This document shows positions 5,579 through 11,276 of a stretch of DNA of 64,000 nt, one piece after another (position 1 is the first letter of the stretch; every line of letters begins with the position of its first letter). This DNA comes from Hydrogenovibrio sp. JE_KL2 (GTDB lineage: Bacteria > Pseudomonadota > Gammaproteobacteria > Thiomicrospirales > Thiomicrospiraceae). The notes beneath the pieces were generated by a model, which was not told the DNA's origin, made no database searches, and was given only the letters and a program-made list of their open reading frames with translations. The stretch covers positions 1-64,000 of the forward strand of contig NZ_WBJR01000001.1 of NCBI RefSeq assembly GCF_009296185.1, read 5' to 3'. The position numbers and the translations under genes were made by a program.

Positions 5579-5677
5579 TCAGGTTGACACTACCGTAATT
5601 AAGCTGAGTAGATAAATCAGAGCCACTGAACCGAAGGTCAGAATGAAGCCCCATAAAATCGCTTTTAAACCAGTCAT
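5579..5677 (-). CDS. 32-residue single-pass membrane peptide at the end of the FCSD operon
   Basis: A small frame starting MTGLKAILWGFILTFGSV and ending in SLITVVST, almost wholly one hydrophobic helix. Its ribosome site AAAGGAG overlaps the last codons and stop of the diheme cytochrome gene (5681) and sits about 6 bp before the ATG at 5677, so its translation is probably coupled. Its size and position recall accessory subunits of oxidases such as CydX or CcoQ, but there is no evident sequence match. I infer a structural role in the membrane complex encoded upstream. Confidence 0.7.
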   Translation of the reverse strand: MTGLKAILWGFILTFGSVALIYLLSLITVVST

Positions 5678-5680
5678 GAT

Positions 5681-6409
5681 CTACTCCTTTCCAGCAGGAT
5701 GAGAAGGGTGCTTAGGCATCAAGTTCGCATAGTATTCTGCCAAGCCTTGGATTTCGGCATCGGTCAGATCTTGTGTGAATTGCGCCATACCCTCATGGAT
5801 ATCATTGGTACGTTTACCATGCTTGTAAGCTTCCATCGTGCGGATGAAATAAGCCGGAACCTGTCCCGCCAATGCCGGTGTGATATCTCTACCTTCACCA
5901 TGAACACCGTGGCAAGAGGCACAAGGGGTAATCATGCGTGACACATCACCCTTGGTGACCAATTTCTTGATATTCGCAGGCGGCGTGTAGTGACCCGTTG
6001 GTGCCGGTAGCTTTTGCGCTGCATAGTAAACCGCCAGATCCGCCATGTCTTGTTTCGACATAGGCGTGGTGGCTGCGTGCATGACGCTCGCTTTACCGTT
6101 ACCTTCATTGCGTAGACCGGATTGATAATCCATCAATGCCTTGTAGGTGTACAGTGCGGTATTTCCTGCCAGGTTGGGGGCGTTGCGTGTAGGCGCAATA
6201 CCTTGCTCACCATGGCAAGTGATACACAAACCATAACTCTCTAGTTTTTCACCACGGGCATAATCGCCTTTAGGCATATCTTTTGCGGTCTTATCCCACG
6301 TGATGTTACTCCAAGCGTCAGCGACAGGCATGCTGTGACCACTAGCCAAAGCGGCTGTGCTGGCGGTTGAAGTGATGGAAACAAGGCCAATTAATAGTAA
6401 GTTTTTCAT
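5681..6409 (-). CDS. Diheme cytochrome c (c4/FccA-like)
   Basis: A 242-residue exported cytochrome with a Sec signal peptide (about residues 1-23, cleavage near ALAS). It has two heme sites, CITCH and CASCH, in two similar halves, the pattern of cytochrome c4 and of the diheme FccA subunit of flavocytochrome c. It should accept electrons from the FCSD flavoprotein encoded immediately upstream. The start at 6409 is supported by GGGAG about 8 bp upstream; the longer frame to 6436 would overlap the flavoprotein stop and destroy the signal peptide. Confidence 0.88.
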   Translation of the reverse strand: MKNLLLIGLVSITSTASTAALASGHSMPVADAWSNITWDKTAKDMPKGDYARGEKLESYGLCITCHGEQGIAPTRNAPNLAGNTALYTYKALMDYQSGLRNEGNGKASVMHAATTPMSKQDMADLAVYYAAQKLPAPTGHYTPPANIKKLVTKGDVSRMITPCASCHGVHGEGRDITPALAGQVPAYFIRTMEAYKHGKRTNDIHEGMAQFTQDLTDAEIQGLAEYYANLMPKHPSHPAGKE

Positions 6410-6432
6410 TCTTTTTCTCCCTTGAATCCCTA

Positions 6433-7731
6433 TCAACTAAAGATGTCTTTACGGAACGTACGCTGCCAGTTTTTAGCAACTTCAGCACGAATATGGCGGT
6501 AGTACGGGTTATCCGTTGGGTCTGACATGACGTAGCTTTCTTCATAAGGGTGGTGGTTGCCCGCGTAACGGAAAGTTTCCGCAACGGTCATCCCCCAGTC
6601 TTCTGCTGCCATGGCGACACAGTTGTTAGTGATAAAAGGCGTACCGATTTCCTTGCCGGTCAATTCGGCTTGAATCGCTTTAGTCACGACTTTTGCCTGA
6701 TTACTGGCGATATAACCGGTTTTCGGCATAGGGTCCGCCGCCGCCGAATCCCCGATGATATAAACGTCTTTGTCACGTTTGGTCGAGAAGTCCTGCGAGT
6801 TGAACGGTGCCCAGTCACCTTCCGCTAGACCGTTCATGCGCACGAATGAACCTGCCATTTCAGGTGGGATGATGTTGATGACATCCCCTTTGTGAACCTG
6901 GCCGTTGGCAGTAGTCAAGGTGCGGTTTTTGGTGTCCAGCTTGGTGACGTGACCGCCAGCTTTTTTCGGAACCCATTCAATACGCGCATCAGGTGTTCCC
7001 AAGCCGTGCTCTTTTTTCCAGAAATCCAGATAGACGTCATGGAAAATGAAGTCGTCTTTTGAATCCAGAATAATGACCTTAGCTGTTGGGTTGGTGTCTT
7101 TCAATTTGTTGGCAATGAAAGAAGCACGCTCATAAGGTGCCGGTGGGCAGCGATATGGGTCGACCGGAGAAGAAATCAACACGGTACCGCCTTGAGGTAG
7201 TGCGTTGATTTGATCTCTTAATACCAGTGTTTGTGGGCCAGCATGCCAAGCGGCAGGGAAGTTGCCTTCCGCTAGTTGTTTACTGTAGCCTTCAACCGCA
7301 CCATATTTGAAATCTGGGCCAGGAGAGACAATCAGTTTGTCGTAAGACAAAACATCGCCTTTCGCCAGCTTCAATTTCTTGGCAGCGTAATCGATTTCGG
7401 TAGCACGGTCTTGAATGATATTGACGGCATAGCGTGACTTCAAGGTATTGTAGTCAACCGTTAGCGTTTCTAGCGTGTCAAAACCGGCAACCACTTCATT
7501 ACTGCCAGGGCAGAAAATGTATTTTGGCTCAGGCTCGACAATGGTGATGCGAACATCGGCATTCAGCAAACGCATATATTTTGCAGAAGCCGCGCCACCG
7601 ACACCGCCACCAACGATAACGATGTGTGCGCTCTTGCTGGCAAACGCTAAGCTGGAAGCGCCCATCAGTCCAGTACCTAATGCACTTGCACCGAAAAGTT
7701 TGATCAGATCGCGACGTGTAATCTTATTCAT
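6433..7731 (-). CDS. fccB: Flavocytochrome c sulfide dehydrogenase flavoprotein, FccB-like
   Basis: A 432-residue periplasmic FAD enzyme that should oxidise sulfide to sulfur or polysulfide and pass electrons to cytochrome c. The N-terminus carries a twin-arginine motif (TRRDLIKLFG, Arg6-Arg7), so it is probably Tat-exported. The Rossmann FAD motif IVGGGVGG follows at about residues 39-46. Cysteines occur in FCPGSN and RCPP, and the C-terminal FCSD flavin-binding region is present (AAEDWGM to the end). The start at 7731 has AAGGAG 8 bp upstream and overlaps the preceding cytochrome stop by 8 bp, indicating translational coupling. The longer frame to 7860 is rejected. Confidence 0.9.
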   Translation of the reverse strand: MNKITRRDLIKLFGASALGTGLMGASSLAFASKSAHIVIVGGGVGGAASAKYMRLLNADVRITIVEPEPKYIFCPGSNEVVAGFDTLETLTVDYNTLKSRYAVNIIQDRATEIDYAAKKLKLAKGDVLSYDKLIVSPGPDFKYGAVEGYSKQLAEGNFPAAWHAGPQTLVLRDQINALPQGGTVLISSPVDPYRCPPAPYERASFIANKLKDTNPTAKVIILDSKDDFIFHDVYLDFWKKEHGLGTPDARIEWVPKKAGGHVTKLDTKNRTLTTANGQVHKGDVINIIPPEMAGSFVRMNGLAEGDWAPFNSQDFSTKRDKDVYIIGDSAAADPMPKTGYIASNQAKVVTKAIQAELTGKEIGTPFITNNCVAMAAEDWGMTVAETFRYAGNHHPYEESYVMSDPTDNPYYRHIRAEVAKNWQRTFRKDIFS

Positions 7732-8152
7732 GGCTGTTCTCCTTAGCATTCCCTTTGATTGAAGCGTTCCAATTAGGAAGCGTCCATTCTTCAGGTTTTT
7801 GTTTTGCAAAGAAATCCGCCATTGCCTCGATTTCCTCATCGGAAAAAACACGTGCAACATCGTACATCACGATGGATGGAAATTTATTAGCACGATAGAT
7901 TTTCATTTGCTTAATGAACTTTTGTTTATCCATTCCTGCCAAAGGAGGCATAGCTTCGTTGAATTCCGCTCCTTTGGTGCCGTGGCATGCTGAGCAGTTG
8001 TCGCCCAGCATTGCGCCTGAAGGCATAGGATATTCGGAGCGAACTTTTGCTTCCTGTTCAAGAGTTAAACCTCCTGTAAGAGCAAAGCTGGCAGGTGCTT
8101 GCAATAGGCAAGTCAAACCTGTCATGGCACTTATCAATAGTAATTTTTTCAT
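7724..8152 (-). CDS. Monoheme cytochrome c, exported
   Basis: A 142-residue protein with a signal peptide (MKKLLLISAMTG start, cleavage near SFA) and one heme site CSACHG at about residues 52-57. A candidate sixth ligand Met occurs further on (IVMYDVARVF). It is a class I-type periplasmic cytochrome and, by position, an electron carrier of the adjacent sulfide dehydrogenase complex. The ATG at 8152 follows AAAGGAAC and lies 14 bp after the upstream membrane gene. The longer frame to 8380 overlaps that gene and is not credible. Confidence 0.85.
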   Translation of the reverse strand: MKKLLLISAMTGLTCLLQAPASFALTGGLTLEQEAKVRSEYPMPSGAMLGDNCSACHGTKGAEFNEAMPPLAGMDKQKFIKQMKIYRANKFPSIVMYDVARVFSDEEIEAMADFFAKQKPEEWTLPNWNASIKGNAKENSHE

Positions 8153-8166
8153 AATCCGTTCCTTTC

Positions 8167-9417
8167 CTATCTTGCCCAAACATAGAAGCCGACAACAAAG
8201 AACTGCACTACCCAAAGGACAACGATCCAGATAGATAGGGTTCCCAGTCTGTTGACGAACGCGCTTGGCGTGTAAACACCGACGGTCTGACCGGCTTTCC
8301 ATGCGATTGTCAGGAAGTAGGACAATACAATCCCACCGACGATGGCAAACGTCAGGAAGAACAAGCCTGTGGAGTACCAATCGAACTCGATTTTGTAATC
8401 CCAGAAGTTGTAGTGGAAGAAGCCGTTCAGGATATCGTAGCGCAACATTTCACGAGAAATTGCGACAACCAAACCGATCACCAGCGCCATTGGCAATGCC
8501 ATATAGCTACAGAACTTGGCTTCACCATTTAGGCGAATTTGTGCCCAAAGAGCATAGAACAACACCATAACTCCCCCTAGAATTCCCCAGAAAGAGGTCG
8601 CGAAGTTACCTGCCGTTTCCGGTAGTGTCATCATCCAGCCGACATAAAGTACGGTAGAAATGATAGAACCGACTTTGATCCATTTTTTACCAACTTCTGC
8701 CGCCCAGTTCAGGTAAGCATGGTCTGCATCGGAACGTACCGATTTGAAGCGACGGTAAGTCACCAACATGCCACCGGCAACCGGAATCGACAAGCTGATA
8801 AAGAATGCATAACGCCATAGGTTCCACTCATGCAGTTTGTCACCTGTGTAGTCCACCATGCCGTTTTTTTGCATGTACCAAGACTTCCACAACTCAGGGT
8901 GTAGGATTTGCGAGGTCAAGCTGTGCATGATGAAACCAACCAACAACATCAGTGCCAAGCTTAATAGCATTGACCAACGGGCTTTAGGCGTTGCTGATTT
9001 ATCTTGGTTAGCGTTATTGACGAAGTAGTAGTAATACATCGCCCAATAGCCCAAAATCAAGAAGATGATAAAGCCGATAACCCAGTCTGCCGACAAGACA
9101 TTGGAGGTATACCAATGCGGGTCATACACGACTTGTACGAACAGCAGCGGAGCAACCCCAATCACGATGGCGACGGATACCGATACTTTGGCGACTTCCA
9201 ACATCGCAGCACCCAGTCTGCGCCAGTAGGTATTTTGGCTAAAAGCACCGATTAAGGTAATGACGGAGGTTCCCAACATCAGTTGCACGAATAGAATGTG
9301 CAAAGCAAAGGTCAGTACGCTCAGTCCAATGAAAATGATTGGATAGCTTGGTAGCCCGGCAGGGTTACGCAACGCATACATCATGTCTGTAATTTGAGAG
9401 ACTTGTGAAGCATCCAT
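8167..9417 (-). CDS. Polytopic membrane protein, CydA-related, partner of the next gene
   Basis: A 416-residue integral membrane protein with about nine or ten helices and no heme c site. His40 in LHILFV sits in the first helix, in the place where cytochrome bd subunit I carries its heme ligand, and the overall plan resembles a CydA half. I therefore suggest a b-heme membrane subunit pairing with the 483-residue protein. It overlaps that gene by 1 bp (TAATG), with AGGAG 8 bp upstream. It is not a canonical CydB. Distant homology is judged by eye only. Confidence 0.6.
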   Translation of the reverse strand: MDASQVSQITDMMYALRNPAGLPSYPIIFIGLSVLTFALHILFVQLMLGTSVITLIGAFSQNTYWRRLGAAMLEVAKVSVSVAIVIGVAPLLFVQVVYDPHWYTSNVLSADWVIGFIIFLILGYWAMYYYYFVNNANQDKSATPKARWSMLLSLALMLLVGFIMHSLTSQILHPELWKSWYMQKNGMVDYTGDKLHEWNLWRYAFFISLSIPVAGGMLVTYRRFKSVRSDADHAYLNWAAEVGKKWIKVGSIISTVLYVGWMMTLPETAGNFATSFWGILGGVMVLFYALWAQIRLNGEAKFCSYMALPMALVIGLVVAISREMLRYDILNGFFHYNFWDYKIEFDWYSTGLFFLTFAIVGGIVLSYFLTIAWKAGQTVGVYTPSAFVNRLGTLSIWIVVLWVVQFFVVGFYVWAR

Positions 9418-10868
9418 TAGTTATTCTCCTGTGTCAAAGCGGCAATTTTATTTTTCGCTTTTTCAGCAAGCTTGGCTTGTTGACGTGCTTCAATTTCTTG
9501 ACGAATGGCAGCATCAACCGCTTTTTCACCACCTTTTCTGTTCATAACTAAGAAGGTAGACAAAGCTTTTACTTCTGAATCCAGCATCGGCATTTTTGGC
9601 ATATAAGCGATATTGCCTGTTGTCAAAACACCTTTGACGTATTTTTCCATACGCGCTTCGGTAATATTGTCAGGAATATAGCGATGCAATGGACGAATAC
9701 CGGTTTTGCTAGGTGAGTGACAGTTAGAGCAATACACCATGGCAATGAACTTACCGGCCTGAACCACGTTGCCATCATTCACAGTTCGCAAATCTTTAGG
9801 GGTGAATGGGTGCGCTTTCAAAATCCCTTCTTTTTCCAGTAGTGGAATTTGAGACTTAATACCCATGCCAGGGACATCACGACCAATGACTTGGTTTGAG
9901 TAAACATACTGTCCTGCAACCCAAGGTTTACGCATGGATTCACGAGCGGTTTCTTCAGGCCACAAACCGGCAACTAGAATCACAACCGCCATGCCACCTG
10001 CAAACGCTTGTACCAGCACTTGAGGGCGAAGCATCGTCAAGATGAAGTAAGCCAAAGTCCCTGCCAACACTGCAATAATGCTTGGCTCGAAATAGCTTGG
10101 TAAACGGTTTTCCATGACCAAAAGTGCTTGATCTGGCACTGCTTTCAAATAAAGTTGGAACATAGCCGCACCGATAATGGTAGAGATAATCCCCAACCAA
10201 CCGAGTTTGCGTGCCATTTCTTTTTTGAACGCTGGGTCTTTGATGCCGGCAACAACGATACCACCCACCACGGCTGTCATGGTGAACATGAATGCCATGC
10301 GCATTGCCAATTGGATAAAGGTGTTTTCACCGTAGAAACCATTTAGGTAACCACCCTGCTGGAACCAAGCTTCTTTCCCTGGCACCATCATGAAAGACAG
10401 GATACCAACGATAATCAACATGGTTGCCAAGGACGCAACCCCGAAAATCACCGAGATCTTCATATGAGTTCTCTTATCGACCTTGCCGACCAAGTAAACG
10501 ATCATGTAGACCCCGACCACTTCGATCACGAAGAACACCCATTCGGTTGCCCACTTCCAAACGAAGGAGTGGATCAAAGCACCGATACCGTTCGGGCTGG
10601 CGACCGTTGTCGAATACCAGATACCCGGACCAGTGATAGACCCAGCAACATAGGTGAATACCAAAAGAAATAAGCCGTACTTCTTGATAAAGTCGAGCAA
10701 ATCTTCACGGTCTTCGCGATAAGCCTTATGAGAGAGATAGGCGAAGAGGAGTGCAGCACCAACAGAGGTATGGGATGCAAGAACGTGGAAAGTTGCGATA
10801 AAGGCAACTACCCAGCCGGATCCCACTGTTGGTTCGTACCATGTAGGATACAAACTGATTAAGTCCAT
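9417..10868 (-). CDS. CydA-like membrane protein fused to a C-terminal cytochrome c domain
   Basis: A 483-residue protein with about eight helices followed by a periplasmic-type heme site CSNCH near residue 380. The N-terminal helix holds His28 and His33 (TFHVLASH). The region WATEWVFFVIEVVG followed by GKVDKRTHM resembles the acidic-pair helix and following His-Met of cytochrome bd subunit I. The helix equivalent to the one bearing CydA His186 seems to read TFIQLAMRM, so that His appears absent. The C-terminus is a charged coiled-coil tail. The ATG at 10868 has GAAGGAAG upstream. As first gene of the FCSD operon it probably links periplasmic cytochromes to a membrane electron acceptor; whether it reduces quinone or oxygen cannot be told. 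Confidence 0.65.
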   Translation of the reverse strand: MDLISLYPTWYEPTVGSGWVVAFIATFHVLASHTSVGAALLFAYLSHKAYREDREDLLDFIKKYGLFLLVFTYVAGSITGPGIWYSTTVASPNGIGALIHSFVWKWATEWVFFVIEVVGVYMIVYLVGKVDKRTHMKISVIFGVASLATMLIIVGILSFMMVPGKEAWFQQGGYLNGFYGENTFIQLAMRMAFMFTMTAVVGGIVVAGIKDPAFKKEMARKLGWLGIISTIIGAAMFQLYLKAVPDQALLVMENRLPSYFEPSIIAVLAGTLAYFILTMLRPQVLVQAFAGGMAVVILVAGLWPEETARESMRKPWVAGQYVYSNQVIGRDVPGMGIKSQIPLLEKEGILKAHPFTPKDLRTVNDGNVVQAGKFIAMVYCSNCHSPSKTGIRPLHRYIPDNITEARMEKYVKGVLTTGNIAYMPKMPMLDSEVKALSTFLVMNRKGGEKAVDAAIRQEIEARQQAKLAEKAKNKIAALTQENN

Positions 10869-11276
10869 AATATAACTTCCTTCTTATATTAATACGTACT
10901 AATACGTTATATTGATCGGCATTTCTTATTATGCTTGCAACGGATTGTAGTGACTATTACTATTAGTTGGTATTCAAAAGATTTTATTTATTTAGGCATA
11001 AAATATTTTATGAGTACTTGGCGTTAGATGTCGGTTTTTGCGTATATTGTTGTTTTTGAATAATATTTCAGGTTTTTGATGACAGTGGTTTTTTGGGGGT
11101 TACGCTAAAATGCGCGCTATTAGCCATAAAATAAATGATGTATTTTGCAAATAAATGTTTGAGTTTGGCTCAAATCGGCAAAATTCTGGAGGTTGAACTC
11201 GCTTGTAATTAACAGAAATTGTCGCTAGTCTAGCGATTAATTTATAGCCTTCAATCGTTGGGTTTGAGGAGAGCAT
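10869..11276. promoter_or_regulatory. 408-bp divergent intergenic region, FCSD operon versus addB-like gene
   Basis: No gene seen. It must hold the promoters of both divergent transcripts. Close to the FCSD operon a direct repeat AATACGT occurs at 10891-10897 and 10901-10907, spaced exactly 10 bp, which could be a tandem operator. Near the other side TTTGAG-TTTGG-CTCAAA forms a perfect dyad at 11158-11174. No convincing sigma-70 pair was found. Confidence 0.4.

Follow-up and report, generated by a model that had tools for sequence, protein, structure and literature searches.

What are two polytopic membrane proteins, one of them ending in a cytochrome c domain, doing in the operon of a sulfide dehydrogenase that is usually drawn as feeding the general cytochrome c pool? 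This question is raised by the minus strand, positions 10868-5579, of a 64,000-nucleotide stretch from Hydrogenovibrio sp. JE_KL2 (contig NZ_WBJR01000001.1, positions 1 to 64,000; ‘the window’), where six genes encode a membrane protein fused to cytochrome c (MemA), a second membrane protein (MemB), a monoheme cytochrome c, the FccB and FccA subunits of flavocytochrome c sulfide dehydrogenase (FCSD), and a 32-residue peptide. Our answer is that the operon probably encodes a sulfide dehydrogenase dedicated to an oxygen reductase of the bd superfamily, that is, a CydAA′-type reductase fed by cytochrome c. An earlier note on this DNA had described a six-gene operon whose members overlap or are separated by no more than 23 bp; all of its parts are present, with spacings along the operon of −1, +14, −8, +23, and +3 nucleotides (negative for overlaps, positive for gaps):

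9417..10868, minus strand: MemA, predicted CydA-fold membrane protein with a C-terminal monoheme cytochrome c domain (483 residues; CSNCH at 380-384, Met423)
8167..9417, minus strand: MemB, second predicted CydA-fold membrane protein, CydA′-like, without a cytochrome domain (416 residues)
7724..8152, minus strand: periplasmic monoheme cytochrome c (142 residues; CSACH; signal peptide)
6433..7731, minus strand: FccB, FCSD flavoprotein (432 residues; twin-arginine signal TRRDLIK)
5681..6409, minus strand: FccA, diheme cytochrome c subunit (242 residues; CITCH and CASCH; signal peptide)
5579..5677, minus strand: single-transmembrane peptide MTGLKAILWGFILTFGSVALIYLLSLITVVST (32 residues; in Thiomicrospirales operons only)

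MemA gives a sub-threshold match to the Pfam family Cyt_bd_oxida_I (PF01654; E-value 0.0042, 16.1 bits, cut-off 26.2). At an E-value of 0.01 or better, 16 of 48 MemA relatives match this family (best 1.2e-5), and MemA2, a paralogue encoded in the same genome, matches the bd oxidase subunit I family more strongly than MemA does (2.9e-4). A MemA profile broadened with distant relatives aligns with CydA at an E-value of 2.3e-5 (probability 76); MemA and MemB are also homologous to each other (hhalign; E-value 3.6e-9, probability 96). NCBIfam and PHROGs hold no useful match for either protein, and searches of the PDB with MemA or MemB, as single sequences or as profiles, return the cytochrome c domain alone or no match; we therefore compared AlphaFold models of the two proteins (mean predicted local distance difference test scores, pLDDT, of 77.8 for MemA and 88.4 for MemB) with solved structures, using Foldseek and VIA-align.

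The top solved fold in Foldseek is CydA for both proteins, with some CydB chains close behind for MemB. When aligned with ten CydA chains by VIA-align, the MemA model scores Z 20.1-23.3 (root-mean-square deviation 3.4-4.1 over ~300 residues) and the MemB model Z 22.8-25.8 (~345 residues), as compared with Z 14.5-17.7 for the NrfD-type membrane subunits of alternative complex III and PsrC and less than 10 for unrelated chains. As modeled, both MemA and MemB adopt the CydA fold; the description of both as CydA-like in the earlier note is borne out, and its own proposed refutation, structure prediction that shows no such fold, ended with the fold found in each protein. The assignment of MemB to DUF2231 (Pfam E-value 0.005, below the cut-off) was dropped in favor of CydA, and an NrfD/PsrC identity was ranked lower, its Z scores lying several units under those for CydA.

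The conserved residues indicate what kind of CydA-type protein MemA may be. We compared 56 MemA sequences, a set that reaches as far as Thermus and Agrobacterium, and 53 MemB sequences with CydA, in which we take the roles of His19, E99/E107, E445, R448, and H186 as established. In MemA, the residues H28, E109, R309, E310, R313, K314, and P315 are invariant (56/56), as are those of the heme c site (C380, C383, H384, and M423; 56/56); position 116 is Glu in 55 sequences and Asp in one. H28 aligns with His19 of CydA, and direct sequence comparison finds identical spacing in E310-S-M-R313-K-P315 of MemA and E445-Y-G-R448-Q-P of CydA. No MemA sequence has a histidine at the position of CydA H186, which is occupied by an invariant arginine (Arg190, 56/56), and the Q-loop, a long periplasmic loop, is found in neither the MemA alignment nor the model. 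MemB conserves H40 (53/53), E323 (51/53), and R326 (53/53) and has no equivalents of E99/E107; one hhalign alignment, with a weak score, pairs E323/R326 with the Glu and Arg of CydA.

MemA thus looks like a protein that has kept the predicted di-heme O2-site residues, lost the quinol-side heme, and gained a heme c domain. Because the active-site residues are kept, H186 and the Q-loop are absent, and the heme c site is invariant, it looks like a cytochrome c-fed, CydAA′-type member of the bd superfamily and no quinol oxidase. Three claims of the earlier note hold at this point: one of the CydA-like proteins carries its own heme c domain (CSNCH 380-384 and Met423 of MemA), the His186 equivalent is lacking (Arg190 takes its place), and this is no ordinary bd oxidase, the H186 ligand of heme b558 and the Q-loop both being absent.

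FccB matches the Pfam families FCSD_central (2.5e-38) and FCSD-flav_bind (1.5e-8), the solved FCSD flavoproteins 5n1t and 1fcd are its best PDB matches, and its three cysteines, that is, the one predicted to bind flavin adenine dinucleotide (FAD) covalently and the redox pair, line up with those of 5n1t. Judged by its sequence, FccB is a genuine FCSD flavoprotein and a putative sulfide:cytochrome c reductase. The 32-residue peptide is strongly conserved across the Thiomicrospirales; in orders outside the Thiomicrospirales it is absent downstream of FccA, so it is no general part of the system, and it may be a small accessory subunit. Counts of promoters and terminators are at or near chance level.

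From these assignments a path for the electrons can be proposed. FccB would oxidize sulfide at its FAD in the periplasm, and the electrons would pass through the two c hemes of FccA to the monoheme cytochrome, then to the heme c domain of MemA, and from there to a high-spin di-heme site in MemA, for which H28 and E310 are the candidate ligands, together with E109/E116. O2 would be reduced at this site, and MemB would serve as the CydA′ partner. The protons for O2 reduction would probably come from the cytoplasm, which would make the reaction electrogenic, as in cytochrome bd. For bd-superfamily members that lack a quinol site, cytochrome c is the presumed electron donor (PMC12324825, PMC10839748), and quinone would lie outside the path; the suggestion in the earlier note that quinone might receive the electrons is unsupported, since MemA has no b558/quinol site and its electrons would be delivered by c hemes. 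In Escherichia coli, the bd oxidases are resistant to sulfide and bo3 is sensitive (PMC4815019); because MemAB would contain no copper, sulfide resistance is expected for it as well, unlike for the heme-copper oxidases.

A scan of ~85,000 species gave 201 relatives, of which the best 79 loci were kept; because the ranking was by resemblance to the window, it favors the FCSD-linked kind. Nearly all of their hosts are sulfur-oxidizing proteobacteria (Thiomicrorhabdus, Halothiobacillus, Thioalkalivibrio, Thiomonas, Hydrogenophaga, Thiothrix, Thiobacillus, and others). MemA and MemB are adjacent at nearly all loci, and FccB is adjacent to MemA at 67 of the 79: 65 loci have MemB, FccB, and FccA, and two have FccB and are cut at contig ends. 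Nine of the other 12 loci are likewise contig ends, and three (L116, L117, and L120) truly lack FccB. Within the order, MemA is present in 42 of 63 Thiomicrospirales genomes; 20 Thiomicrospirales regions have the order MemA-MemB-cytochrome-FccB-FccA, mostly followed by the peptide, FCSD-free paralogues excepted.

A fairer sample, 369 genomes drawn evenly from the class, contains 11 MemA loci in 10 genomes, and FCSD lies within 5 kb at seven of these loci; FCSD itself is present in 124 genomes. With seven of 11 MemA loci linked, and 124 genomes with FCSD as compared with 10 with MemA, MemA of this subfamily is usually linked to FCSD, and most FCSDs are without a link to MemA. The earlier note would have yielded to a survey in which the membrane genes usually lie apart from FCSD; they are linked to it at 67/79 and 7/11 loci. 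A second gene order, cytochrome-FccB-MemA-MemB-FccA, occurs in Halothiobacillus, Guyparkeria, and genome G329, so the link is more than one frozen arrangement, and the pairing of MemAB with FCSD is beyond local chance.

In a first FccB tree, a single branch (ultrafast bootstrap 100; SH-like approximate likelihood ratio test, SH-aLRT, 100) separates the linked sequences from 15 unlinked ones. Because these 15 were the top-scoring unlinked sequences, a selection open to bias, a larger tree was built that also takes in lower-scoring loci. In this larger tree, a quick version, the linked FccB sequences again group together (SH-aLRT 100); their group includes a single unlinked copy, from Hydrogenophilus, whose gene is a few kb away from a linked operon. 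The row named L076_linked in both trees is the unlinked FccB of that locus, identical to L076b. In the MemA tree, the FCSD-linked sequences form a single clade (SH-aLRT 97) within a wider set of FCSD-free MemA; because of this nesting, a stand-alone, cytochrome c-fed MemAB oxidase was likely captured once by FCSD. Thiomicrorhabdus heinhorstiae (L039, 3592-12050) has two tandem operons in which MemAB is 100% identical over 2702 bp, the cytochrome-FccB-FccA cassettes differ, and the upstream DNA is unrelated; this suggests that one and the same membrane module can accept different FCSD cassettes, and the identity of the MemAB copies may reflect gene conversion or an assembly artefact.

Several points weigh against a dedicated oxygen reductase. 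MemA of the window does not reach the curated cut-off of PF01654; its model is moderately confident, with pLDDT below 50 at residues 87-107 and 315-322, beside key residues; and E109/E116 fall in the region of CydA E99/E107 with a spacing that differs by one residue, so their exact pairing is approximate. Furthermore, the same genome encodes a canonical CydA and one heme-copper oxidase, either of which could take the electrons, and the existence of FCSD-free MemAB means that the module does not require FCSD. We nevertheless regard the dedicated reductase as the probable function of the operon. We advance with more reserve, as a conjecture somewhat more apt to fail than to hold, that the six-gene chain forms a self-contained sulfide:oxygen oxidoreductase supercomplex that would bypass quinone and the heme-copper oxidases, would have arisen once by FCSD capture of a stand-alone cytochrome c-fed bd-type oxidase, and would have been kept across many sulfur-oxidizing proteobacterial orders.

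The FCSD-free copies qualify the picture of the earlier note, in which the dehydrogenase and the membrane genes form one set: the linked operon is real, and MemAB also exists apart from FCSD, including a second copy in the same genome. This copy (L022, own genome C1:453000-469000, positions 5847-10940) consists of MemA2, MemB2, and a monoheme cytochrome, and its divergent neighbors are a histidine kinase and a Fis-type response regulator that resemble RegB/RegA. Plasmids of Methylosinus (L192) and Agrobacterium (L194), as well as Thiobacillus (L117), have similar regulator pairs beside FCSD-free MemAB; other FCSD-free sets are without such regulators. FCSD-free MemAB usually occurs with a small c cytochrome.

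Several of the FCSD-free loci have other neighbors. In two Methylococcus-like genomes (L120 and L124), MemA-MemB is followed by a diheme cytochrome, with no FccB, and a membrane-pyrophosphatase-like gene, identified by eye, adjoins the set. A Thermus thermophilus plasmid (L193, 6235-8801) carries a MemAB pair outside the Proteobacteria (~34% identity to MemA), with metal ABC transporter and molybdenum cofactor genes nearby. At L125 (1340-9034), in another gammaproteobacterium, genes for soluble methane monooxygenase are directly preceded, on their own strand, by a distant MemAB pair (30% and 26% identity).

The strongest rival explanation is that MemAB and the monoheme cytochrome form a general oxidase for the whole periplasmic c pool, with FCSD merely co-transcribed. 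FCSD reduces soluble cytochrome c, MemAB accompanies a small c cytochrome without FCSD at L022, L120, L124, and L192, and most FCSDs have no MemAB nearby (FCSD in 124 of the 369 genomes vs MemA in 10), all as this explanation predicts. However, the linked MemA sequences fall into one clade and the linked FccB sequences into another, the MemAB-FCSD pairing persists through a change in gene order, and the host has a separate FCSD-free copy of MemAB, which suggests that the linked copy is specialized; we judge the general oxidase to be unlikely, although it deserves serious consideration.

It is decidedly improbable that MemAB passes the FCSD electrons to the quinone pool, so that the operon would be a membrane-bound sulfide:quinone reductase. 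In its favor, MemA and MemB resemble NrfD-type subunits that react with quinone, namely those in alternative complex III and PsrC (Z 14.5-17.7), but CydA matches clearly better; moreover, the H186/b558 ligand and the Q-loop are absent and the predicted di-heme O2-site residues are invariant. Quinone reduction from c hemes is normally uphill, and it is the missing quinol site together with these redox potentials that disfavors quinone as the acceptor. Least probable of all is that MemAB is only a membrane anchor or the reductase of an acceptor other than O2 (e.g., nitric oxide): we know of no measured activity for the subfamily, the host has other oxidases, and the distant pair L125 lies beside methane monooxygenase genes, but the invariant H28, E109, E310, R313, and heme c site (56/56) would be needless for a mere anchor, and most of the named hosts are sulfur oxidizers with an aerobic or facultative lifestyle.

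The dedicated, cytochrome c-fed reductase that we favor is part new and part known. The earlier note proposed a new membrane complex, and pairs of CydA and CydA′ without a quinol site have already been named (CydAA′; OR-C/OR-N families; PMC10839748, PMC12342949), so that the novelty lies in the coupling to FCSD and the fused heme c. Like MemAB, the CydAA′ systems (e.g., OR-N1 and OR-N2 of Nitrospira/Nitrospinota) have two CydA-type subunits and no quinol site, and cytochrome c is their proposed donor (PMC10839748, PMC12342949, PMC12324825); unlike them, MemAB has heme c fused to one subunit and is embedded in an FCSD operon. The likeness to OR-C/OR-N is drawn from residues and the paralogous pair, as compared with published descriptions. 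MemA shares with the E. coli bd-I quinol:oxygen reductase (CydAB, qOR) the CydA fold and equivalents of His19 and Glu445-x-x-Arg448-x-Pro, but has no H186 equivalent or Q-loop and carries a C-terminal cytochrome c domain; the operon has no CydB gene, the partner being a second CydA-like protein. In Candidatus Manganitrophus, the TO_1 to TO_4 clusters likewise group bd-like proteins with other redox subunits in a chemolithotroph; there, cytochrome b, complex III, or Mrp-like subunits take the place of FCSD (PMC9040806). We found no publication that couples a CydAA′-type module to FCSD, although an earlier mention in Murali 2021 is possible.

FccAB of Allochromatium vinosum (1fcd) and Thioalkalivibrio (5n1t) share with the present proteins the covalent-FAD cysteine, the redox cysteine pair, and a diheme FccA; here, FccB belongs to a separate, MemAB-linked clade, and a monoheme cytochrome and a membrane module are added. 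The premise of the earlier note that classical FCSD is soluble is correct for Allochromatium, but membrane-bound FCSDs have been described biochemically: those of Thiobacillus sp. W5 and Ectothiorhodospira vacuolata are reported to be located at the membrane (Visser 1997, Kostanjevecki 2000, as cited in PMC12010331). A MemAB-FCSD operon of the present kind could explain the membrane-bound FCSD of Thiobacillus sp. W5. To our knowledge, no bd-like partner has been reported for the enzyme of either organism.

Annotation pipelines hide this system, its proteins being labeled in RefSeq as ‘cytochrome c’ and ‘hypothetical protein’ (e.g., the relative on the Methylosinus plasmid). A comparative survey of fccAB contexts reported no conserved neighbors (PMC6382920); in contrast, the FccB clade described here is accompanied by the same genes in many orders. 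If MemAB reduces O2, the electrons from sulfide would leave these bacteria by a dedicated route that may resist sulfide; models of respiration under conditions in which sulfide poisons the heme-copper oxidases would then change, and the uncharacterized, cytochrome c-fed branch of the bd superfamily would gain a concrete target.

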